Of a stretch of DNA of 64,000 nt, positions 6 through 24,244 are shown in pieces. The number at the start of each line of letters is the position of its first letter. The stretch's first letter is position 1. The stretch covers positions 4,372,001-4,436,000 of the forward strand of contig NZ_LT629791.1 of the NCBI RefSeq assembly GCF_900105925.1. Reading direction: 5' to 3'. A program made the translations under genes and the position numbers. The notes beneath the pieces were generated by a model. That model was given only the letters and a program-made list of their open reading frames with translations. It did no database searches and was not told where the DNA came from. Source of the DNA: Jiangella alkaliphila. Its GTDB lineage: Bacteria; Actinomycetota; Actinomycetes; Jiangellales; Jiangellaceae.

Positions 6-863
6 ATGACGATCGACGTAGGACGAGCAGGGGTGTGGGTCGGGGCGCGGAACTGGCCCGCTGACCAGGCCGAGGTGAAGGACGCGTTCGCCGAGCTGGA
101 GGCGCTGGGTTACGGCGCGGCCTGGCTGGGGGGCGCCGAGGGCGACCTCCTCCGTCCTGAGCAGGTCCTCACCGCCACGACGCGGCTGACCGCCGCCACC
201 GGCATCGTCAACGTGTGGACGGAGCCCGCCGACGAGGTGGCCGCGGCGTTCGACCGCGTCGACGGCGCCTACCCCGGCCGGCTGCTGCTGGGCGTCGGTG
301 CGGGCCACGCCGAGTTCGTCGAGCAGAGCGGCCAGACGTACCAGCGTCCGTACAGCAAGGTCGCCGACTATCTCGACCGGCTCGATGCGGCGGGGGTACC
401 GGCGGCGAAGCGGGCCGTCGCCGCGCTCGGGCCGCGGACACTGCGGCTGGCGGGCGAGCGCAGCCTCGGTGCGCACCCCTACCTCGTCACGCCCGAGCAC
501 ACTCGCCTCGCCCGCGAGGTCCTCGGCGACGGGCCGCTGCTGGCGCCGGAGCAGAAGGTCGTGCTGTCGACGGACGAGAACGAGGTGCTGCGCATCGCCG
601 GACCGGTTGTCGAGTTCTACCTCGGCCTGCCGAACTACGTGAACAACCTGCGCCGCCTCGGCTTCACCGACGACGACGTGTCGGGCTCGGGCAGCTGGCG
701 GCTGGTCGATGCACTGATCGCGTGGGGCGACCCCGACACCGTCGCGCGACGCGTCGCCGACCACCACACCGCCGGCGCCGACCACGTCTGCGTCCAGGTC
801 CTCACCGCCCGGCCCGGCCCGCCGCGGGCCGAGTGGCGGGCGCTCGCCCCGGCGCTGACCTAG
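6..863 (+). CDS. LLM-class F420-dependent oxidoreductase
   Basis: A 285-residue luciferase-like monooxygenase fold protein, probably an F420-dependent oxidoreductase acting in the cytosol; the substrate is unknown. The N-terminal strand (VGVWV-like), the LGVGAGHAE segment near residue 97 and the C-terminal part with a GDPDTVARRVADH motif (about 240-255) fit the TIGR03620-like branch, in which the C-terminal region binds substrate and cofactor. The ATG is only 5 bases from the window edge, so the start cannot be confirmed against upstream sequence. Its stop overlaps the stop of the convergent carbonic anhydrase gene by 4 nt. Confidence 0.85.
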   Translation: MTIDVGRAGVWVGARNWPADQAEVKDAFAELEALGYGAAWLGGAEGDLLRPEQVLTATTRLTAATGIVNVWTEPADEVAAAFDRVDGAYPGRLLLGVGAGHAEFVEQSGQTYQRPYSKVADYLDRLDAAGVPAAKRAVAALGPRTLRLAGERSLGAHPYLVTPEHTRLAREVLGDGPLLAPEQKVVLSTDENEVLRIAGPVVEFYLGLPNYVNNLRRLGFTDDDVSGSGSWRLVDALIAWGDPDTVARRVADHHTAGADHVCVQVLTARPGPPRAEWRALAPALT

Positions 864-1360
864 GCCAGCTGGGTGAGCCGGCCGGTGTCGACGTCGTAGC
901 GGAAGCCGCCGACGGGGACGGTAGGGGGCAGGTACGGCCACGAGCGGATCTTCTGGACGTCCTCGACGAGCGTGGCCTCCTGGTCGGCGATGAGCTGGAA
1001 GTCGAGGCTGCGGACGTCGATGCCGGTGGACTGCTCGATCGCGGCGACCACCTCGTCGGCGGTGGCGCTGGCCATCTTGCATCGGGTGTGCGCCACCACC
1101 ATGATGCGCGTGACGCCGAGCAGGTGCGTCGCCAGCGCCAGCGTGCGCAGCACGTCGGTGGTGACCCGGGCGCCGGCGTTGCGCATGATCTTCGCGTCGC
1201 CCGGCTTCAGGCCCAGCATGTCCAGCGGCTCGATGCGGGAGTCCATGCAGGTGACGACGGCCAGCCCGCGTGCCGCGACCGGCTCGAGGCCGGACAGCGC
1301 GAACTTGGCCGCGTAGTCGTCGTTGCCGGCCAGGACGTCGGCGAACTCGTCGGTCTGCAT
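860..1360 (-). CDS. beta-class carbonic anhydrase
   Basis: Catalyses reversible hydration of CO2 in the cytosol. The 166-residue protein has the beta-class zinc ligands: Cys-Met-Asp-Ser-Arg near residue 38 (Cys and the Asp/Arg dyad) and His-Thr-Arg-Cys near residue 92 (His and Cys). Its length fits the short type III/actinobacterial subgroup. The ATG start is preceded by a good ribosome site (GAGGAG, about 5 nt away). There is no signal peptide, unlike the second carbonic anhydrase at 37996. It converges with the oxidoreductase gene and is tail-overlapped by it. Confidence 0.93.
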   Translation of the reverse strand: MQTDEFADVLAGNDDYAAKFALSGLEPVAARGLAVVTCMDSRIEPLDMLGLKPGDAKIMRNAGARVTTDVLRTLALATHLLGVTRIMVVAHTRCKMASATADEVVAAIEQSTGIDVRSLDFQLIADQEATLVEDVQKIRSWPYLPPTVPVGGFRYDVDTGRLTQLA

Positions 1361-1404
1361 CGGGCTCCTCTACACGAAGGAACGGGGGCATCGCGACGGC
1401 GCTG

Positions 1405-3168
1405 TCACGCCTCCACGGTACGGGCCCGGTGCCGCAGCAGCAGCACGGCACCCACCGCGGCGGCCGCCGCGCAGACGGCCGCGCCGGTGAACGTCGCCTG
1501 CAACTGCTCGACGATCGCCTGCCGGACGGCGTCGTCGTACGGGTCGCAGTCGGTGGGGGAGTCGGGGCAGAGGACGGTCGGCGACTCGATGCCGGCCTGG
1601 ACGGAGTAGAGCCGCCGCAGCCCGATCGCGGTCAGCGCCGACAGTCCGGCCAGCATGCCGACCATCCGGGCGACGACGAGCAGCGCGCTGGCAACGCCGT
1701 GGGTCTCGCGCGGCGCCGCGGCGAGCAGCGCGGCGTTCACCGGCGCGATCGCCAGCCCGAACCCGAGCCCGGCCGCCACCAGCACCGCGTCGTCGCCGAT
1801 GCCGTCCAGTGAGCCGACGCCCCAGGTCGCCATCACCGCGAGCCCGGCCGTGCCCAGCGCCATGCCGGCGCCGGCCAGCAGCGCCGGGCCGTACCGGTGC
1901 AGCAGCCAGCCGCCGAGCAGCGCGCCCACAGGCAGCGCGACCAGGAAGCGCAGCAGCACCAGCGCGGCGTCCAACTGGTCGGCGCCGTCGAGGACGGTGC
2001 GGGCGAGGATCGGGACGTCGACGACGACCGCGACCAACGCCGCGCCGACGAACAGGCTGACGACCAGCGCGCCCCACGCGGGCCTGGCCCGGATCGCGGC
2101 GGGCGGGACGAGCGGCGCTGCGGCCCGGCGCTGCCGCCAGCCGAACGCCGCCAGCGCGACGGCGGATCCGGCCAGCAGCCAGGGTCCGGACGGCGCCATC
2201 AGCTCCTCGGCGGGGTCGGCGGTGGCGAACGTCAGCACGATGCCGCCGAGCGCGACGCCGAGCAGCAGGGCGCCCGGCAGGTCGGCCGCGCGCAGCACCG
2301 ATGGCGTTCGGCGCAGCGGCAGCAACGGATGGCGGGCGGTCAGCTCGCGGGCGACGAACGCCACGACCAGCACGAACGCGGCCAGCGCGAGCGGCGTCGT
2401 CCAGTCCCGGCCCTCGGAGCGGGGCACCAGCAGCTCGCCCCACTGGACGCTCTGCTCCAGCGACGACGGCCGGGTGACGGCGACGCCCCCGCAGGCCAGC
2501 GCGGCCAGCCCGAGGACGGCGCCGGCGACGTCGAACCGGCCGGCGGGCGGCGGCGCGCTGCCGTCCGCGTCCGCGTCGGCGTCGACCGCCGCGGCCCGAC
2601 GGCGGGTGGCGGCCGTCCCCGCGAACAGCAGGGCGCCGACCACGAAGTTCACCCAGAAGATCGCCCGCCAGTCGGCCACGGCCAGGATCGCCGCGCCGAA
2701 CAGCGGCCCGAGCACCGAGCCCAGCTCCTGCACGGCCCCGACCAGCCCGAGCGGCACACCCCGGCGCTCCGGCGGCCACAGGTCGGCGACCAGCGCCAGC
2801 GTCACCGGGACCAGCGCCCCGCCGCCGGCGCCCTGCAGGAACCGGCCCACGATCGCGCCCGCGACGCCGTCCGCCGACGCCGTCAGCAACGACCCGGCGG
2901 TGAACACCAGCAGCGAGGCGGTCAGCACCGGCAGCCGCCCGGTCACGTCCGACACCCGTCCGACCAGCGGCAGCACGACCACGTAGCCGAGCAGGAACAT
3001 TGAGACCAGGGGAGCGGCGCGCTGGAGTTCGTCGACGTCCAGCCCGACGCCCACCATCATGTCCGGTAGCGCCAGGACGATGACGTAGGTGTCGGCGGCG
3101 GCCAGCAGGACGCCGACGACCCCGAGGACGAGCGCGGCCTGGCCGGTGCGCTCAGCTCTCCGGAGCAC
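1405..3168 (-). CDS. P55-like MFS transporter (LprG partner)
   Basis: A 587-residue DHA2-type major facilitator with about 14 predicted membrane helices. Residues about 130-175 (GAVQELGSVLGPLFG, then DWRAIFWVNF) and about 490-515 (VVARMVGMLAGLSALTA) closely match my recall of mycobacterial Rv1410c (P55), which exports triacylglycerides and drugs together with the lipoprotein LprG. A glycine/alanine-rich insert lies around residues 190-215. The start overlaps the upstream lipoprotein gene by 17 nt, which implies coupled translation and supports the lprG-p55 assignment. Other DHA2 exporters remain possible if the recalled motif match is coincidental. Confidence 0.85.
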   Translation of the reverse strand: MLRRAERTGQAALVLGVVGVLLAAADTYVIVLALPDMMVGVGLDVDELQRAAPLVSMFLLGYVVVLPLVGRVSDVTGRLPVLTASLLVFTAGSLLTASADGVAGAIVGRFLQGAGGGALVPVTLALVADLWPPERRGVPLGLVGAVQELGSVLGPLFGAAILAVADWRAIFWVNFVVGALLFAGTAATRRRAAAVDADADADGSAPPPAGRFDVAGAVLGLAALACGGVAVTRPSSLEQSVQWGELLVPRSEGRDWTTPLALAAFVLVVAFVARELTARHPLLPLRRTPSVLRAADLPGALLLGVALGGIVLTFATADPAEELMAPSGPWLLAGSAVALAAFGWRQRRAAAPLVPPAAIRARPAWGALVVSLFVGAALVAVVVDVPILARTVLDGADQLDAALVLLRFLVALPVGALLGGWLLHRYGPALLAGAGMALGTAGLAVMATWGVGSLDGIGDDAVLVAAGLGFGLAIAPVNAALLAAAPRETHGVASALLVVARMVGMLAGLSALTAIGLRRLYSVQAGIESPTVLCPDSPTDCDPYDDAVRQAIVEQLQATFTGAAVCAAAAAVGAVLLLRHRARTVEA

Positions 3169-3874
3169 TGATCTCGGCGGGCTCGTCGTAGTCGTCGAGG
3201 CTGACGGTGTAGGTCTGCTCGTCGCCGCCGTCGTAGAACGGGCCGGTCAGCGTGGCCTGGCGCAGCTGGCCGGTCTCGGCGTCGAGCGCCCACACGGCCT
3301 GCACCTCGGCGGACGGGTCGGCGATGGTGAGCACCTCGCCGACCAGCTCGCCCGGCAGCACCGACTCGACCTGGTCGTAGACGTCGCCGTCGACGCGGAT
3401 CTGCTCGCCGGCGGTGATCTCGGTGCCGGACGTGAGCAGCTGGCTGACGCCGTGGTCGGGGTCGATCAGCAGGCCGGGGTCGCCGAACCCGAGCTCTTCG
3501 GCGTCGACCTCGTCGAACCCGCTGGTCAGCGGCAGCTGCGCCCACAGCGTCCCGTCGACGGAGACGACCTCGATGGTGGCCGGCAGCGCGCCCGCACGGA
3601 TGCGGATCTCGCCCTCGAACGACGACGGCGGCACCGCGACGCCTTCGCCGCCGACGACGACCGTGCCGTCGTCGGGGAGGTCCTCGCCCTCGAGCACGAA
3701 CGTGACGCTGGACGCCTCGTTGAGCAGGTCGGCGGCGGTCTCCAGCTGCGCCTGCGGGTCGCCGTCGGTCTCGCCCCCGCCGCTACCACCGTCGCCGTCG
3801 TCACTGCACGCGGTGAGCGTCAGCGCGGCGACGACGAGCGCTGCGGGCAGGATCCGGCGAGCGGCGTGGCGCAT
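3152..3874 (-). CDS. LppX/LprAFG-family lipoprotein (LprG-like)
   Basis: A 240-residue secreted lipoprotein. The start is taken at the internal ATG (3874), because from there the protein begins with MRHAARR, a hydrophobic stretch and the lipobox LTAC, followed by an acidic/Gly-rich linker. The longer frame to 3931 would put 19 non-signal residues in front. The mature part is a beta-rich domain of the LppX_LprAFG type (ASSVTFVLEGEDLP near residue 55; PGLLIDPDHGVSQLLTS near 125) that holds acyl lipids in a hydrophobic cavity. It overlaps the transporter gene, as in the mycobacterial lprG-Rv1410c operon, and probably hands lipid to or from that transporter at the outer face of the membrane. Confidence 0.87.
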   Translation of the reverse strand: MRHAARRILPAALVVAALTLTACSDDGDGGSGGGETDGDPQAQLETAADLLNEASSVTFVLEGEDLPDDGTVVVGGEGVAVPPSSFEGEIRIRAGALPATIEVVSVDGTLWAQLPLTSGFDEVDAEELGFGDPGLLIDPDHGVSQLLTSGTEITAGEQIRVDGDVYDQVESVLPGELVGEVLTIADPSAEVQAVWALDAETGQLRQATLTGPFYDGGDEQTYTVSLDDYDEPAEISAPES

Positions 3875-17823: not shown

Positions 17824-17860
17824 GAGGCCGCCGCGGGACTCGCGATCCCGCGGCGGCCTC
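17824..17860. terminator. strong hairpin between convergent genes
   Basis: A perfect 15-bp stem, GAGGCCGCCGCGGGA with its complement, around a 7-nt loop. It lies 27 nt after the LolA-like stop and 6 nt beyond the stop of the convergent nuclease-like gene. It is likely to terminate transcription from both sides. Confidence 0.85.
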
Positions 17861-17865
17861 GTCGT

Positions 17866-18933
17866 TTACGGGGTGAGATCGCTAGGTGGTGAGGCCTCCC
17901 GCCGTAGGCGCCTGGCCTCACGATGGAAGTTCACCGGGCTGTTGGCGAGGACCTTGTCGGTCATGATGCCGAGGAGCCTGCCCGGGCTCAGCTCAGGTGG
18001 CACCGCGTCGAACCGCAGCTCGACGCGCGGCAGGGTCTCGATGCCCTTGGTGACCATCGCATCGGAGATCAAGGCTGGTGCGGGGTCCAGCTGCTGCTCG
18101 GGGTCGATCGGCTCGAGGCCGGCTGCCACCAGCGGGTTGTCGTCGGGCTCTTCGTCGGACGGAGCGACGACCGCCTCATCGTCCCACTCCGGGACGATGA
18201 GGCCGACGGCGTCGTAGGCGTCGTCCTCGCGGCCGAGCTTGGCCAGTAGATCGATCAGCCACTCCGCCTTGTCTGGTTCCTGGGTCAGCGCCGTCGACCG
18301 GAGGGAGTAGAAAAATCCGAGGCCGGCCAGCGGGTGACGCAGACGGAGGTTCTTGGCGTCGCCGTAGGACTCCTCGACCCGGTTAGCGGCGTTCTTGCCG
18401 AACGAGCTGTCCATCCGCTTGGTCGAGATCATCAGCTCCGGACCGGTTTGCCAGGAGGACATGACGACGTCCACCTGCTTGACGTAGTTCTTGCCCAGGA
18501 GGTTGGCCGCCGCGAGCGTCACGCCCGTGATTTGCCCGCTGGTGACGCGCTTCCGGACCTCTGCCTGCAACGCACGAGGAAGTCCGTCCATCAGGGTCGT
18601 GACCTCTGCCGGCAATACGCGCGGGGCTTCGTCGCGCGGCCAGACCCGGTCGCGGTCGAACCCCGCGCGCCGCAGTTCGTACGCGATCCACACGTCCAGG
18701 GCCAGTGCTGGCACCCCGGACTGCGACGACGCGCCGGTGAGCAGCGGCACGGCCAGCAGCGCCTTGAGCGTGTCGTAGTCGGGGCGGAACTCCACCGGGC
18801 CGTTGCCGGCCGACCGCTGCCAGGGGTTGCCGGACCGCAGCGCGGCATCCCGCACGATCTGGTCGAACAGCTGCCATGCTGCGGTACGTGCTGTCTTGGT
18901 CAAGTCTCGGCCCTTCGCGCTCGATAGAGTCAT
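17866..18933 (-). CDS. restriction-island nuclease-like protein
   Basis: A 355-residue protein I cannot place in a named family. It is the third gene of the methyltransferase operon. A nuclease-like pattern is visible at Asp155 (QVDVVMSSW), Glu166 and Lys172 (GPELMISTKRM), followed by basic and aromatic stretches (NRVEESYGDAKNLRLRHP). This resembles PD-(D/E)XK folds, although the acidic residue two before the Lys is a Ser. The N-terminal half is mixed helical; the C-terminal 80 residues are acidic, then basic. It starts 41 nt after the interrupted nuclease gene. It may be a second restriction subunit or specificity component. Confidence 0.6.
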   Translation of the reverse strand: MTLSSAKGRDLTKTARTAAWQLFDQIVRDAALRSGNPWQRSAGNGPVEFRPDYDTLKALLAVPLLTGASSQSGVPALALDVWIAYELRRAGFDRDRVWPRDEAPRVLPAEVTTLMDGLPRALQAEVRKRVTSGQITGVTLAAANLLGKNYVKQVDVVMSSWQTGPELMISTKRMDSSFGKNAANRVEESYGDAKNLRLRHPLAGLGFFYSLRSTALTQEPDKAEWLIDLLAKLGREDDAYDAVGLIVPEWDDEAVVAPSDEEPDDNPLVAAGLEPIDPEQQLDPAPALISDAMVTKGIETLPRVELRFDAVPPELSPGRLLGIMTDKVLANSPVNFHREARRLRREASPPSDLTP

Positions 18934-18974
18934 GCGTCTGCTAGGCCGGAGCCGTCAGCTTACGGCGTGGGTGA

Positions 18975-19883
18975 TCAGTCGACCTGCTCGTCATCGGGAT
19001 CGAGGTCGGTCACGTCAACGGCTCGACGCGTGGGAATCTGTGGCTCCGGCGGGCGCCCGTGGGGACGTTCCAGACCGTTGATCTCACTCGCGATACCATG
19101 GACGACATCATCGAGCTCGACGATCCGATCCGGCCACGGAATCTGTACATGCTCGTAGCCGTCGTTGGTCGAGTTCGGCCGGTACGCGAGGATGCCTGCG
19201 CCGTCGAGATATGTCTCGGTCAAGGCTCGGACCTCGGTCAACATCGTGGCCAGATTGTCCTTACCCTCAGTGAGCCGTGCGCACCAGAGGAAGTACACCG
19301 ACGGCGCGGCCTTGCGGCGCCAGGTATCCCAATGCTCGATGCGCGTGTCCTACTGTCGCCGGTACAGCTTGAGGTCCGTCGCTTGGAACTTCAGCTCCTT
19401 CCGGCGGTTCGACCAGTCGGCGCGCGCCGGGCGTTCCTTGCCGCCGTCATAAGCCGGCCCACCCATCACCTTCGTCTCGACGCATACGAGTGGGTCGCGG
19501 ATCGGACGGGGGCGGCGCGCGGGCCATGCAATGTCGATCTGGTGGAGCTGGGAGAAGCCCTGCACGCTGGTGCGTGGCGCAAGGGCCGACTCGGTCTGGT
19601 TCTCCAGAATGAGGCTGACCAGTTCGGCGAACCAGCCGCCCTTCATGCGATACGCGCCTTCGAGGCGTTTCTTGCTGGTCTGGTTCGGGTTACCCATGCC
19701 TCGTGGTGGCACGCCGGCGACTCGATAGAGGTCGAGGCACCACAGGATGTCGAGGAAGTCGCGTCGGATCTCGGAGATGCGCTGAAGGTTCTCCTGCCGG
19801 ATCCGCACCTTGAGGCCTGCCCATCGATCGGCCGGATTGCCCACCTGCTGCTCAAGCCGCCGGACCTGCAGAACCTCGTCCAC
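18975..19883 (-). pseudogene. PD-(D/E)XK restriction nuclease, interrupted by in-frame TAG
   Basis: One reading frame of about 302 codons broken by a TAG at 19352-19350 (codon 178). Translation resumes in the same frame without a gap: ATDLKLYRRQ, stop, DTRIEHWDTWRRKAAPSVYFLW. The start is the GTG at 19883 with AGGAG 5 nt upstream; the longer frame to 20114 lies inside the methyltransferase. Nuclease residues Asp117 (HQIDIAW), Glu136 and Lys138 (VCVETK) form a clear PD-(D/E)XK core upstream of the stop. A single CAG-to-TAG change would explain it. Reinitiation at a GTG (19298), readthrough or a sequencing error are alternatives. It probably was the restriction enzyme. Confidence 0.78.
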
Positions 19884-19924
19884 GTATCTCCTCTCTCGGA
19901 TGTGTGTGAGCGTTCGCTCGGCGG

Positions 19925-21598
19925 TCAGGCACGTGCACCCATACGACGTGTCCGGAGTGTTTGAGCCGCCTGCTGCAAGCTGCTCACGTCGCCGGGCGAG
20001 AGCCCCAGCGTCTCGACGAGCAGCGCTTGATCGATTTTCGTGACGACGTTCGCCCAGTGGCCGTTCTGGAGGCTTCGCTCGATTGAACGCACCTTGCCGC
20101 CCAGCAGATCCCAAGCGGCCGAGAGTGCGCCCGCAGGCGGCACTGGGAGGGACGCGGCCTCACGAGGTTCCATCTTCAGGATGCCGCCGCCATAGGACCT
20201 GCCGAAGATCTCGGCGCCCAACATGGTGACGCTGTTGAAGGCGAGCAGGGGCAATGCATTCCTCGCAGCGTCGGGTACGTCGTCCTTCAATCGCAGTCCG
20301 TGCATGGAGTTGAGGAAGGTTGTGCCCGCACTGTTGGTGATGAGCCGGGGATAGCGGTGACTCATGTATGTGAAGAACAGATCGGGCGCCGGCACAGCAG
20401 GCGGCCGCCACCAGGGATGGCGGATCGTGCACTTGTATGCCTGGTTGACCCCGAGCTTGAAACCGCGGTGAATGTAGGCCGTGACGGAGGGCGAGACGTC
20501 GTTGGCGTCAGGACGGAACAGCCACACGCGTTCGCCTGAGTCGCGGAGCTTCGCCCATGCCGAGGTGCTGAATCGCAGACCCGTGAGATGTTTCGTCCCC
20601 GGCGGGCAGATCTTGATCACCTGGCCAGCAGCTTCACTGAGACCGAATTCGCGCCGGGTGGTTTCGGTCAGCGCGAAGAACGCGTTGCTGCCCGTCACCG
20701 TGCCGAGTTCAGGGGCGCCGTAGGTTTTCAGCGGTGTGAAAAGGTTGCTGCTCACCTGCCGGAACAGGTGTCGCTGCCGATTGGGCAGGAGCAGGTCGGT
20801 CCACTTACCGCTGTCCGATACTGGTGCGGCGTGATTGCTCATGGGACGTACGTGGGCGAGGTCCTCACCGTCGTTGAGGTAATAGAGGGAGAACGCGTCG
20901 CAGCCGCCGTCGCCCGCCGCGAGCACCAGTACAACCTTCTCTGTGGCGCCCTGGAACTGCAGCTTGTCGAACATAACGAGGTGGACCTGCTCGAACCGGT
21001 TCTTCAACCACTCCCGTACAGGTTCGGCGTAGCCGACGGTGAGCAACTCGGCGGGCAGCACCATGGCCAGACGTCCAGTCGGCTTGAGGAAGCCGCACGC
21101 GTGTATGAGCAGCGCAGCCCAGGAGGACGCGAGGTTGGAGAGGCGCACACCTTGGCGAAGCGCCGCTTGTTTGGAACGGTCGCGTGCCTCGCCGATGTGC
21201 CGTTGGTACCGGACGAACGGCGGATTGCCGATGATGGCGTCCATCTCCGGGACGGGCGAACCGAGTTGGTCGGGTGTCGGCACGGCGAAGAAGTCACCCT
21301 GCTGCAGATGTGCGTCGAGACCCTCGTCGTCGAGAAGCTTGTCGGCCCATTCCAGAGATGTGTCATGAAGGTCGAAGCCGAACAACTGCTCGTCGAGGTC
21401 GCTGACGTCGCGGCCCAGCGCCTTGAGCCTGCGACCGGCAGCGAGCAGGAAGACGGCCTCACCACAGGTCGGATCCATGACCTTGGCGTCCGCCTGATCG
21501 AGCACGGCCCAATCGGCGAGGAAGTCCGCGATGGCGGACGGGGTGAAGAATGCCCCGCGCTCCTTGCGTAGTCCTTCGTTGTCGCCATCCCTGATCAT
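19925..21598 (-). CDS. gamma-class N6-adenine DNA methyltransferase
   Basis: A 557-residue TaqI/Eco57I-type modification enzyme. SAM-binding motif I is DPTCGEAVF (residues 42-50), and motif IV, which positions the target adenine, is NPPF (125-128, followed by VRYQRH). The N-terminal GAFFTPSAIADFLADW segment is typical of these enzymes. The C-terminal half is probably the target recognition domain (VNQAYKCTIRHP, LRLKDDVP). It heads a three-gene operon with the interrupted nuclease and the nuclease-like gene. Base composition is visibly less GC-rich than its neighbours, consistent with horizontal arrival. Confidence 0.9.
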   Translation of the reverse strand: MIRDGDNEGLRKERGAFFTPSAIADFLADWAVLDQADAKVMDPTCGEAVFLLAAGRRLKALGRDVSDLDEQLFGFDLHDTSLEWADKLLDDEGLDAHLQQGDFFAVPTPDQLGSPVPEMDAIIGNPPFVRYQRHIGEARDRSKQAALRQGVRLSNLASSWAALLIHACGFLKPTGRLAMVLPAELLTVGYAEPVREWLKNRFEQVHLVMFDKLQFQGATEKVVLVLAAGDGGCDAFSLYYLNDGEDLAHVRPMSNHAAPVSDSGKWTDLLLPNRQRHLFRQVSSNLFTPLKTYGAPELGTVTGSNAFFALTETTRREFGLSEAAGQVIKICPPGTKHLTGLRFSTSAWAKLRDSGERVWLFRPDANDVSPSVTAYIHRGFKLGVNQAYKCTIRHPWWRPPAVPAPDLFFTYMSHRYPRLITNSAGTTFLNSMHGLRLKDDVPDAARNALPLLAFNSVTMLGAEIFGRSYGGGILKMEPREAASLPVPPAGALSAAWDLLGGKVRSIERSLQNGHWANVVTKIDQALLVETLGLSPGDVSSLQQAAQTLRTRRMGARA

Positions 21599-21853
21599 GA
21601 TCTGCCGATCCTAGGAGACCGGACTGACAGCGTGATCCGGCTCGGACCGCTGAGGGGCGTCTGGAGCGACCTGCCGCCCGCCCTTGTCCGGCTGGGCACG
21701 CTGGTCTGCTCGGACATGACCACATCCTCGCCTATCGCCAGAGGTGTTCCGAGCCGCCCCGCCGAGATAAGCGTGCCGAGCGCAGACGTTGCCGACGATG
21801 AGGTGATCTCCTCGGCACTTCGTGCCCATGCCGCGGAAACGTGGGGTGCCTAA
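21599..21853. other. intergenic region upstream of both operons
   Basis: Together with the operator block that follows, about 315 nt separate the divergent methyltransferase and permease genes. No gene was recognised and no convincing promoter can be named; short frames here lack ribosome sites. It probably carries the start sites of the restriction island. Confidence 0.4.
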
Positions 21854-21893
21854 GTTGCGTGCAACGTGTCCGCACGGGTGACCTGCGTCACCC
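21854..21893. promoter_or_regulatory. two palindromes upstream of the permease operon
   Basis: GTTGC-gt-GCAAC (21854-21865) has the TTGC/GCAA half-sites common in LacI-family operators. GGGTGAC-ctgc-GTCACCC (21876-21893) is a second perfect palindrome 10 nt further on, close to the ribosome site GAGGAGG of the GTG start. Either could control the purine/pyrimidine operon; the binding protein is not in view. Confidence 0.5.
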
Positions 21894-21913
21894 GACCTGC
21901 GTGAGGAGGCCCC

Positions 21914-23365
21914 GTGACCCTGCGGTGGAAGGTGGTCTACGACGGCAAGACGCCGCCGCCGGGGGCGGTGGTCAGGCCGGACGAACGGCTGTCGTGGGGG
22001 CGGACGGTGGGCCTCGGCGCGCAGCACGTCGTCGCTATGTTCGGCGCGACGTTCGTGTTCCCGCTGATCATGGGCTTGAACGCGCAGCTGGCCATCATGA
22101 TGAGCGGCGTCGCGACGATATGCTTCCTGCTCATCGTCAAGGGCGTGGTGCCGAGCTACCTGGGCACCAGCGCGTCGTTCGTCGGCGGCGTGGCGGCGAT
22201 CCGGGCGCAGGGCGGCGACTCCGCCGACGTCACCGGCGCGATCCTGGTCGCCGGCGTCGTGCTGGCGCTGTGCGGCGTGCTGATCCACTACTTCGGCTCC
22301 ACCGTCCTCCACAAGGTGCTGCCGCCGGTGGTGACGGGCGCCGTCGTCATGCTGATCGGCTTCAACCTGGCGCCGGTCGTGGCGAACACCTACTGGCCGC
22401 AGGACCAGTGGATCGCGCTGATCGTCATGCTCGCCGTCATCCTCATGGCGGTCGGGCTGCGCGGGTTCCTCGGCCGCATCGCGATCTTCGTCGGGCTGGT
22501 GTTCGGCTACGCGCTGTCGTGGGTGTTCGACCGCGTCTTCGGCCAGATCACCTCGTTCGACCCGGCGGCCGGCGAAGAGACCACCCGCGACCGGGTGAAC
22601 TTCGACGGCGTCCGCGACGCCGACTGGCTCGGCTTCCCCGAGGAGACATTCGTCAGCGGGCAGGGCGTGGAGATCCCGGGCTGGCACCTGCCCAGCTTCA
22701 GCATGACGTTCATCCTGCTGGTGCTGCCCGCCGTCATCGCGCTGATCGCGGAGAACACCGGCCACGTCAAGGCCGTTGCGGAGATGGTCGAGCGTGACCT
22801 CGACCCGGTCATGGGCAAGGCGATCGCCGCCGACGGTGTCGGCACGGTCATCGCGACGTCGGTCGGCGGCTCGCCGACCACGACGTACGCCGAGAACATC
22901 GGCGTCATGGCGGCGACCCGGGTGTACTCGACGGCGGCGTACTACGTGGCGGCGCTGGTGGCGATCCTGTTCGGGTTCTCGCCGAAGTTCGGCGCGCTGA
23001 TCGCGGCCACGCCGGGCGGGGTGCTCGGCGGCATCACCGTCGTGCTGTACGGCATGATCGGCCTGCTCGGCGCCCGCATCTGGATCGAGAACCGGGTCGA
23101 CTTCGCCAACCCGATCAACCTGGTGCCGGTGTCGGCGGGCATCATCATCGCGATCGGCAACACCTCGCTGGAGATCACCGACGACTTCGTGCTGTCCGGC
23201 ATCGCGCTGGGCACCATCGTGACGATCGGCGCGTACCACCTGGCCAGGGCCGTCGCCCCGCCGCACCTGCGCGAAGGCGGCGCCGTCCTCACCGTCGGGC
23301 CGCCGGGGGTGCACGAGGTCGAGGAGGATCCGCCGAGCGAAACGGCGCGGGACGAGAGAGGATGA
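21914..23365 (+). CDS. NCS2-family nucleobase permease (uracil/xanthine type)
   Basis: A 483-residue membrane transporter of the UraA/XanQ family with about 12-14 helices. Family features include GAQHVVAMFGATFVFPLIMG near the first helices and the SVGGSPTTTYAENIGVMAAT loop (about residue 315), whose Glu takes part in substrate/proton coupling. The GTG start has GAGGAGG 4 nt upstream. It heads the molybdoenzyme operon, so it probably imports the substrate (uracil, thymine, xanthine or a related ring). Its C-terminal tail is acidic, and its TGA is 4 nt before the next start. Confidence 0.92.
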   Translation: MTLRWKVVYDGKTPPPGAVVRPDERLSWGRTVGLGAQHVVAMFGATFVFPLIMGLNAQLAIMMSGVATICFLLIVKGVVPSYLGTSASFVGGVAAIRAQGGDSADVTGAILVAGVVLALCGVLIHYFGSTVLHKVLPPVVTGAVVMLIGFNLAPVVANTYWPQDQWIALIVMLAVILMAVGLRGFLGRIAIFVGLVFGYALSWVFDRVFGQITSFDPAAGEETTRDRVNFDGVRDADWLGFPEETFVSGQGVEIPGWHLPSFSMTFILLVLPAVIALIAENTGHVKAVAEMVERDLDPVMGKAIAADGVGTVIATSVGGSPTTTYAENIGVMAATRVYSTAAYYVAALVAILFGFSPKFGALIAATPGGVLGGITVVLYGMIGLLGARIWIENRVDFANPINLVPVSAGIIIAIGNTSLEITDDFVLSGIALGTIVTIGAYHLARAVAPPHLREGGAVLTVGPPGVHEVEEDPPSETARDERG

Positions 23366-23369
23366 TGCG

Positions 23370-24244
23370 GTGAAGCCAGCGGGGTTCACCTACCACCGGC
23401 CGGCCACCGTCGACGACGCCGTCGCGGTGCTCGCCGAGGTGAGTCCTGCCGGCAAGGTGCTGGCCGGTGGGCAGAGCCTCGTCCCGCTGCTGAACATGCG
23501 GCTGGCCGTGCCCGAGCACCTGGTCGACATCAACCGGCTGTCCGACCTCGCCTACGTCCGGGTCGGCGGCGACGGCGTCACCGTCGGCGCGCTGGCCCGG
23601 CATGCCGACGTCGAGCGCGACGACGCCGCGTACGCCGTCCTGCCGCTGCTGCGCGACACCTTGGGGTACGTCGCGCACCCGACGATCCGCAACCGCGGCA
23701 CGACGGTCGGCAGCATCGCGCACGCCGACCCGGCCGGTGAGCTGACCGCGGTGCTGGCGCTGCTGGAGGGGACCGTGACGCTGCGGTCGGCCCGCGGCGA
23801 GCGCACCGTCACAGCCGCCGACTTCTTCACCGGACCCTTGTCCACCTGCGCCGATGCCGGCGAGTTGGTCACCTCCGTGACGTTCCCGGTGCCGGAGGGC
23901 CGCACCGGGGCCGTCTGGACGGAAGTGGCGCGCCGGCACGGCGACTACGCCGTCTGCGGAACCGGAGTGGTGGTGACACTCGACGACGACCTACGGGTCG
24001 CCGGTGCCAGAGCGGCGTACGTCTCGGCCGGCCCGGAGCCGGTCGTGCTCGATCTCACCGAGGCGGTCGCCGGTCGCGCGTTCGACGACGCGGACTGGCC
24101 GGCGGCCGGGCGGCTGGCGGCGAGCCGGCTGGACCCCGACGACGACATCCACGCGGCGGCTGCCTACCGCACCCACCTGGCCGGGGTGCTGACCACCCGG
24201 GCGCTGCGTGAGGCGGCCGGCCGGGCGAGCGTGGCGGCGGCGGC

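Follow-up and report, generated by a model that had tools for sequence, protein, structure and literature searches.

Gene content and origin of the locus

We analyzed a 64,000-nucleotide stretch of Jiangella alkaliphila DNA (contig NZ_LT629791.1, positions 4,372,001 to 4,436,000; hereafter the window) that contains a DNA methyltransferase gene, an interrupted type II restriction endonuclease frame (R1), and an intact second nuclease candidate (P2) (Table 1). All three genes lie within about 3.9 kb, between positions 17860 and 21772. The methyltransferase gene is upstream and ends 41 bases before the start of R1. P2, which was absent from the preliminary description of this DNA, is on the same strand as R1 and lies 41 bases behind it.

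Judging from its domain matches, the methyltransferase is an intact adenine methyltransferase of the Eco57I class. The Pfam domains N6_Mtase (1.6e-15) and M_Eco57I_C (1.8e-10) were above cut-off, the PADLOC profile MTase_II matched at 1.9e-127, and the best relative of solved structure was the modification methylase BseCI (7qw5; 2.7e-7). It is the sole strong match of its kind in the genome.

The restriction-modification genes are on an insertion that was most likely acquired horizontally, as judged from comparison with congeners and from base composition. The two flanks are 0 to about 84 bases apart in nine of 11 congeners, and the other two showed the left flank only. None of the 11 had a match to R1, or a match to the methyltransferase at 1e-80. 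The GC content of the insertion (17866-21771) is 0.651, compared to 0.729 for the window, and third-position GC is 0.77-0.86 in the genes of the insertion, compared to 0.90-0.97 in the four flanking genes measured. We saw no further convincing gene inside the insertion in the list of open reading frames or in the GC content by codon position. A minus-strand open reading frame at 21611-23389 was considered as a member of the operon and rejected. Its codon-position pattern looks like a shadow of a plus-strand open reading frame (21914-23365), and the flank that contains it is present in congeners without the insertion, which is further evidence against its membership.

Table 1. Features of the locus and of related loci. 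Coordinates are positions in the window, except for the P3 genes, which are given by locus.
Feature	Coordinates	Strand	Basis or remark
Restriction-modification insertion, about 3.9 kb	17861..21774		boundaries +/- about 10 bases; flanks 0 to about 84 bases apart in 9 of 11 congeners
N6-adenine DNA methyltransferase, 557 aa	19925..21598	-	Pfam N6_Mtase, M_Eco57I_C; PADLOC MTase_II
R1, interrupted type II restriction endonuclease frame	18975..19883	-	GTG start, TGA end; translation, PADLOC REase_II, VIA-align
Codons 117-138 of R1, candidate PD-(D/E)XK site	19470..19535	-	D117, E136, K138 invariant in 20 aligned sequences including the window
In-frame TAG, codon 178 of R1	19350..19352	-	translation; sense in 19/19 aligned relatives
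GTG proposed for reinitiation	19296..19298	-	weak ribosome-binding match AAGG, 11 nt away
R1 part 3' of the stop, 124 codons, still conserved	18978..19349	-	includes model strands 195-203, 228-236
P2, intact second nuclease candidate, 355 aa	17866..18933	-	methyltransferase-adjacent homologues, conserved positions, PADLOC in family
P3 genes	L105 5149-5895; L106 5140-5874; L108 5119-5850; L092 about 750-1487 (-)

The R1 frame is interrupted by a single TAG

In the minus-strand translation, R1 has a GTG start at 19883, 177 codons, the TAG (19352-19350), 124 further codons, and a terminal TGA (18977-18975). A good ribosome-binding match (AGGAG) lies 4 nt before the GTG, and the TAG at codon 178 is the sole internal stop. 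The openness of the frame past the stop is weak evidence by itself. The 123 post-stop codons tested stayed open in 126 of 5000 simple shuffles, and one other frame of the six is also open across this stretch. We take the frame to be more than chance because the post-stop part is homologous to intact relatives and has a coding-type GC content by codon position (0.69/0.44/0.77). Translation and conservation thus bear out the preliminary description of a TAG at codon 178 with a protein-like frame on both sides. In the window, seven in-frame stops, including that of R1, are flanked on each side by 100 or more codons of coding-like composition; judged from the list of open reading frames, the other six look like gene ends with the next gene in the same frame. 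The copy of R1 in the genome is identical to that in the window, a match within one assembly that does not independently confirm the base.

The stop was found in no relative. There was no stop inside the matched region at any of 28 related loci (27 from genome contigs and one from viral contigs), a comparison with orthologues that the preliminary description had called for. In an alignment of 20 sequences, the codon aligned with the TAG is a sense codon in all 19 relatives, encoding Q, H, M, A, N, or G, and distant relatives carry an insertion at this point. Because the indel adjoins codon 178, its exact placement is surer in the seven close relatives than in the 12 distant ones. The varied residues and the indel indicate that this place tolerates variation, and the stop itself was seen in the window only.

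The close relatives have the same arrangement as the window, with the order methyltransferase-R1 in all eight. Identity across the stop is 46-54% in seven close relatives and 45% in the least alike two. Apart from the window's own genome, the 22 genomes of the family include one with an R1 relative, a Jiangellales metagenome assembly (L034, JAUJNY010000003.1) in which the frame is open and 49-55% identical. The R1 relative in a Chloroflexi metagenome assembly (L037, 5001-5799) is split by a frameshift elsewhere in the frame, which is either an independent break or an assembly error; it lies beside a methyltransferase gene, with no P2 in the stretch covered.

Conservation of R1 continues past the stop. 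Of the positions conserved among close relatives, R1 of the window keeps 62 of 70 before the stop and 22 of 26 after it. The corresponding values for seven relatives are 62-67 of 67-73 before the site of the stop and 19-24 of 24-31 after it. With no extra decay behind it, the stop could be recent, a base-call error, or read through. On these counts of conserved positions, the break looks recent.

R1 resembles PD-(D/E)XK restriction endonucleases

The PADLOC profile for type II restriction enzymes matched the pre-stop part of R1 alone at 7.7e-6 and the read-through protein at 3.3e-7, and REase_II matched all seven members of the R1 family set A1. Neither Pfam nor NCBIfam yielded a usable match to R1. 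A structure model of the read-through protein had a mean pLDDT of 90.2 and a pTM of 0.87, and the top four rows of its VIA-align comparison were all restriction enzymes: PspGI (Z 12.4; rmsd 5.1, 200 aligned), Ecl18kI (Z 10.3), BbvCI (Z 9.8), and BsoBI (Z 8.3). All four align to about residue 271-275 of R1, well past the stop. Foldseek against the PDB gave no matches at E ≤ 0.001, and restriction enzymes were ranked first by VIA-align only. A sequence search of solved structures found no significant or credible relative of R1.

The motif D...(D/E)xK is the catalytic motif of PD-(D/E)XK nucleases. The invariant residues D117, E136, and K138 of R1 are borne by model strands 113-120 and 133-140, which are followed by a helix at 153-176. 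These candidate catalytic residues precede the TAG, as had been noted at the outset. On the model, R1 is a broken member of the PD-(D/E)XK type II restriction endonuclease genes. The stop falls between helix 153-176 and strand 195-203, and removes strands 195-203 and 228-236 together with helices 211-224 and 257-271. Because it separates the catalytic residues from the later strands, the 177-residue product should be inactive.

P2 is a second nuclease candidate

Homologues of P2 adjoin related methyltransferases at 20 loci. Relatives of P2 were found beside methyltransferases of the same family in seven of the 18 other genomes from the phylum search and 13 of the 19 from the class search, with two genomes in both. 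These relatives were found mostly by way of the methyltransferase, and P2 genes distant from one would be missed. In the plasmid collection, 22 records had a match to P2; among the 20 listed, at least 14 had a methyltransferase match directly adjacent (20 of the 43 plasmid methyltransferase records were listed). There was no match to R1 in this collection. Three genomes of the window's family (G017, G018, and G016; loci L090, L096, and L097) carry methyltransferase-P2 pairs, indicating that P2-type systems circulate in the family.

There are 59 positions at which 19 or more of 21 sequences agree, and P2 keeps 57 of them, including D155, S170, T171, and K172. PADLOC REase_II matched 11 of 16 members of the P2 family (best 2.4e-5), though not the P2 of the window (P0002). 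Pfam XhoI matched three of the 16 members (best 0.083) and L020 (0.018), all below cut-off. The P2 of the window had no Pfam or NCBIfam match at 0.1, and a sequence search of solved structures found no credible relative of P2. A structure model made from three sequences was poor (pLDDT 43.8). From its conservation and its neighbors, we hold with moderate confidence that P2 is a candidate intact second endonuclease. A profile comparison of R1 and P2 gave a probability of 0.4%, with ETK of R1 aligned with STK of P2, which is too weak to use, and we therefore treat the two as unrelated by sequence.

The start of P2 is less clear than that of R1. The ATG has no ribosome-binding match, and a TTG at residue 11, near the point from which homologues align, offers another possible start. 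Given the ATG, the stop in R1 might lower translation of P2 as well; given the TTG, we draw no conclusion.

The preliminary description had suggested that the TAG could disable restriction while the methyltransferase stays intact. The first part of this suggestion holds, in that a nuclease gene is broken by an in-frame TAG beside an intact methyltransferase gene. That restriction is switched off is not supported, because an intact P2 follows R1 directly and its relatives are partners of the same methyltransferase family.

The nuclease partner differs among related loci

Using several queries, we typed the nuclease partner of the methyltransferase at 42 loci. R1 alone was found at 14 loci, P2 alone at 21, and a third type, P3, alone at three. 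At two loci, a single gene matched both the P2 and P3 queries, and at two (L130, where the contig ends at the methyltransferase gene, and L131) there was none. R1 and P2 were together at none of the 42 typed loci; we saw the two side by side in the window alone. In the flanks covered, none of the three types was found in 10 of the 18 other genomes from the phylum search for the methyltransferase and two of the 19 from the class search. The flanks were 1.5 kb only for L091, L092, and L095, and L031 reached only 519 bases past R1.

P3 is a small nuclease-like family (about 244-259 aa) that fills the nuclease place beside the same methyltransferase family. It is distantly similar (about 5e-5) to the P2 of L104, which is the Pseudonocardia plasmid pBCI1-2. 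On that plasmid, a gene for an AIPR family protein (1765-3471) directly precedes the methyltransferase-P2 pair. On a Bradyrhizobium plasmid (L106, 5893-7729), the methyltransferase-P3 pair is followed by genes with DUF262 and HEPN domains, possibly more defense.

We made a tree of 43 chosen methyltransferase sequences: 26 from the phylum and class searches, 10 from genome contigs, one from viral contigs, five from plasmids, and that of the window. The viral contigs had yielded no relative when searched with the methyltransferase or P2 as single sequences, and L058, L109, and L110 when searched with alignments. The tree excludes L025-L030 (distant or cut), L098 (cut), L039 (partial match), the distant methyltransferase matches L041, L042, and L044-L057, and second copies from included genomes.

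The methyltransferase of the window is in a clade of 12 rows (support 100/100) that includes nine R1 rows, one P2 row, and L014, whose contig ends at the gene. The P2 row is the Pseudonocardia plasmid, which thus has a methyltransferase of the R1 clade with a P2-type partner. Over the whole tree, R1 requires five changes, and at least two when judged by well-supported branches; P2 requires seven, and at least four by such branches. These changes indicate that the position beside the methyltransferase has received a new nuclease on more than one occasion. The P2 of the window is 55-57% identical to those of L019, L099, and L100, and 36% identical to that of the plasmid. We infer that P2 came second, since the methyltransferase of the window belongs to the R1 clade, yet its P2 resembles those of other methyltransferases.

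Replacement of the nuclease and alternative explanations

The reading that we favor, with a probability of roughly 0.65, is that a type II restriction-modification locus was acquired horizontally with R1 as its original endonuclease, and that R1 was recently inactivated by a nonsense mutation and was replaced or made dispensable by P2. P2 would have joined the methyltransferase-R1 pair, second in order. One nonsense codon would end R1 after residue 177, before the later strands of the fold, leaving no working nuclease. P2 would cut DNA at sites that are the same as, or compatible with, those of R1, probably relying on the same methyltransferase for self-protection, and would either have replaced R1 or have made it dispensable. 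Two sets of results count against this reading. The lack of other decay in R1 is also what would be expected of a base-call error or of leaky readthrough, and the P2 of the window has no Pfam or NCBIfam match at 0.1, no PADLOC match, a model with a pLDDT of only 43.8, and an ATG with no ribosome-binding match.

We regard as possible, at somewhat less than even odds, a broader version in which the locus is one that swaps nucleases. The methyltransferase family would have been served by R1, P2, and P3, and the window would be a case in which P2 has joined and R1 has just been lost through a nonsense codon. With P2 joined and R1 lost, methylation specificity would stay while the cutter changes.

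The strongest alternative, although an unlikely one, is that R1 is dead and P2 is no substitute, cutting nothing or another site. The methyltransferase would then be in effect an orphan, as first thought from the sequence. The TAG in R1 fits this explanation, as does the status of P2 as a candidate only, with its poor model and an ATG that has no ribosome-binding match. However, P2 is full length and keeps nearly all (57 of 59) of the well conserved positions, and its relatives adjoin methyltransferases of the family in 20 of the 43 rows of the tree.

We think it less likely still, perhaps a one-in-ten matter, that the TAG reflects a miscalled base and that R1 is intact, in which case the locus would have a single methyltransferase and two functional nucleases. 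The assembly consists of a single 7.7-Mb contig, and few substitution errors are to be expected in finished sequence. The R1 frame shows no further defect of the kind that poor data leave. An error would nonetheless fit the sense codon in all 19 aligned relatives and the undecayed post-stop part, and there is a precedent in Brucella, in which 109 of 138 genes with a frameshift or premature stop proved to be intact when resequenced (study cited in PMC3488263).

Programmed or leaky readthrough, by which a small amount of full-length R1 would be made and one of two nucleases throttled, is improbable. Both halves of R1 are conserved, and the TAG is at a site where the family varies and accommodates indels, so that many residues would be tolerated there. 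In contrast, no relative examined has the stop, and RNA folding around the TAG is ordinary (z 0.23 and 0.67). TAG is a common terminator. It ends 13 of the 48 window open reading frames that a composition rule classes as coding-like, and also three of the close relatives of R1 (L035, L036, and L058). The profile for pyrrolysyl-tRNA synthetase (TIGR02367) had no match in the window's genome at 0.001; in controls, 13 of 14 genomes gave some match, one of them over cut-off. Reinitiation at 19298, also raised in the preliminary description, would begin from a weak ribosome-binding match and place the start inside model strand 195-203. We found no support for either programmed readthrough or reinitiation in R1.

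Finally, R1 and P2 are adjacent on the same strand, as might be genes that encode the two subunits of a type IIT-like heteromer, but we give this idea almost no weight, since the two co-occur at none of the 42 typed loci and the plasmid collection, with 22 records of P2, yielded no match to R1.

Relation to known systems

A nonsense-broken endonuclease beside an intact methyltransferase is, alone, ordinary decay of a restriction-modification system. What this locus adds is that its methyltransferase gene is followed by two nuclease genes that share no sequence relationship, of which the one typical of the clade appears freshly broken. If our reading is true, the locus is a modest but informative snapshot of nuclease replacement, and defense may still work by way of P2 despite the broken R1. 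It also offers a direct test of how restriction-modification systems change their cutter without killing the host: whether P2 cuts the site protected by the methyltransferase. A limited literature search, of titles and the openings of abstracts, turned up no case of one methyltransferase with several or exchanging nucleases, and we make no claim of absence.

Several known systems resemble parts of the locus. The read-through model of R1 is closest in fold to PspGI and Ecl18kI (Z 12.4 and 10.3), and D...ExK is invariant in the R1 family; R1 has no significant sequence match to a solved chain, and we do not claim membership in their subfamily. The methyltransferase shares the domains N6_Mtase and M_Eco57I_C with the M.Eco57I class, in which M.BseCI has been solved, and within the family of the window's enzyme the partner nuclease switches between at least two types unrelated by sequence. 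Type IIT systems such as BbvCI and Bpu10I (as defined in PMC4081073) likewise have two nuclease genes beside one methyltransferase, but R1 and P2 are not conserved as a pair. A mirror case, with an intact endonuclease and a broken methyltransferase, is described in PMC3488263. There is also a likeness to type II systems with an inactivated endonuclease gene, which share with the window an intact methyltransferase, an endonuclease with a premature stop, and full-length relatives elsewhere. The window differs from them in having, next in the cluster, another nuclease candidate that is unrelated to the first and apparently intact.
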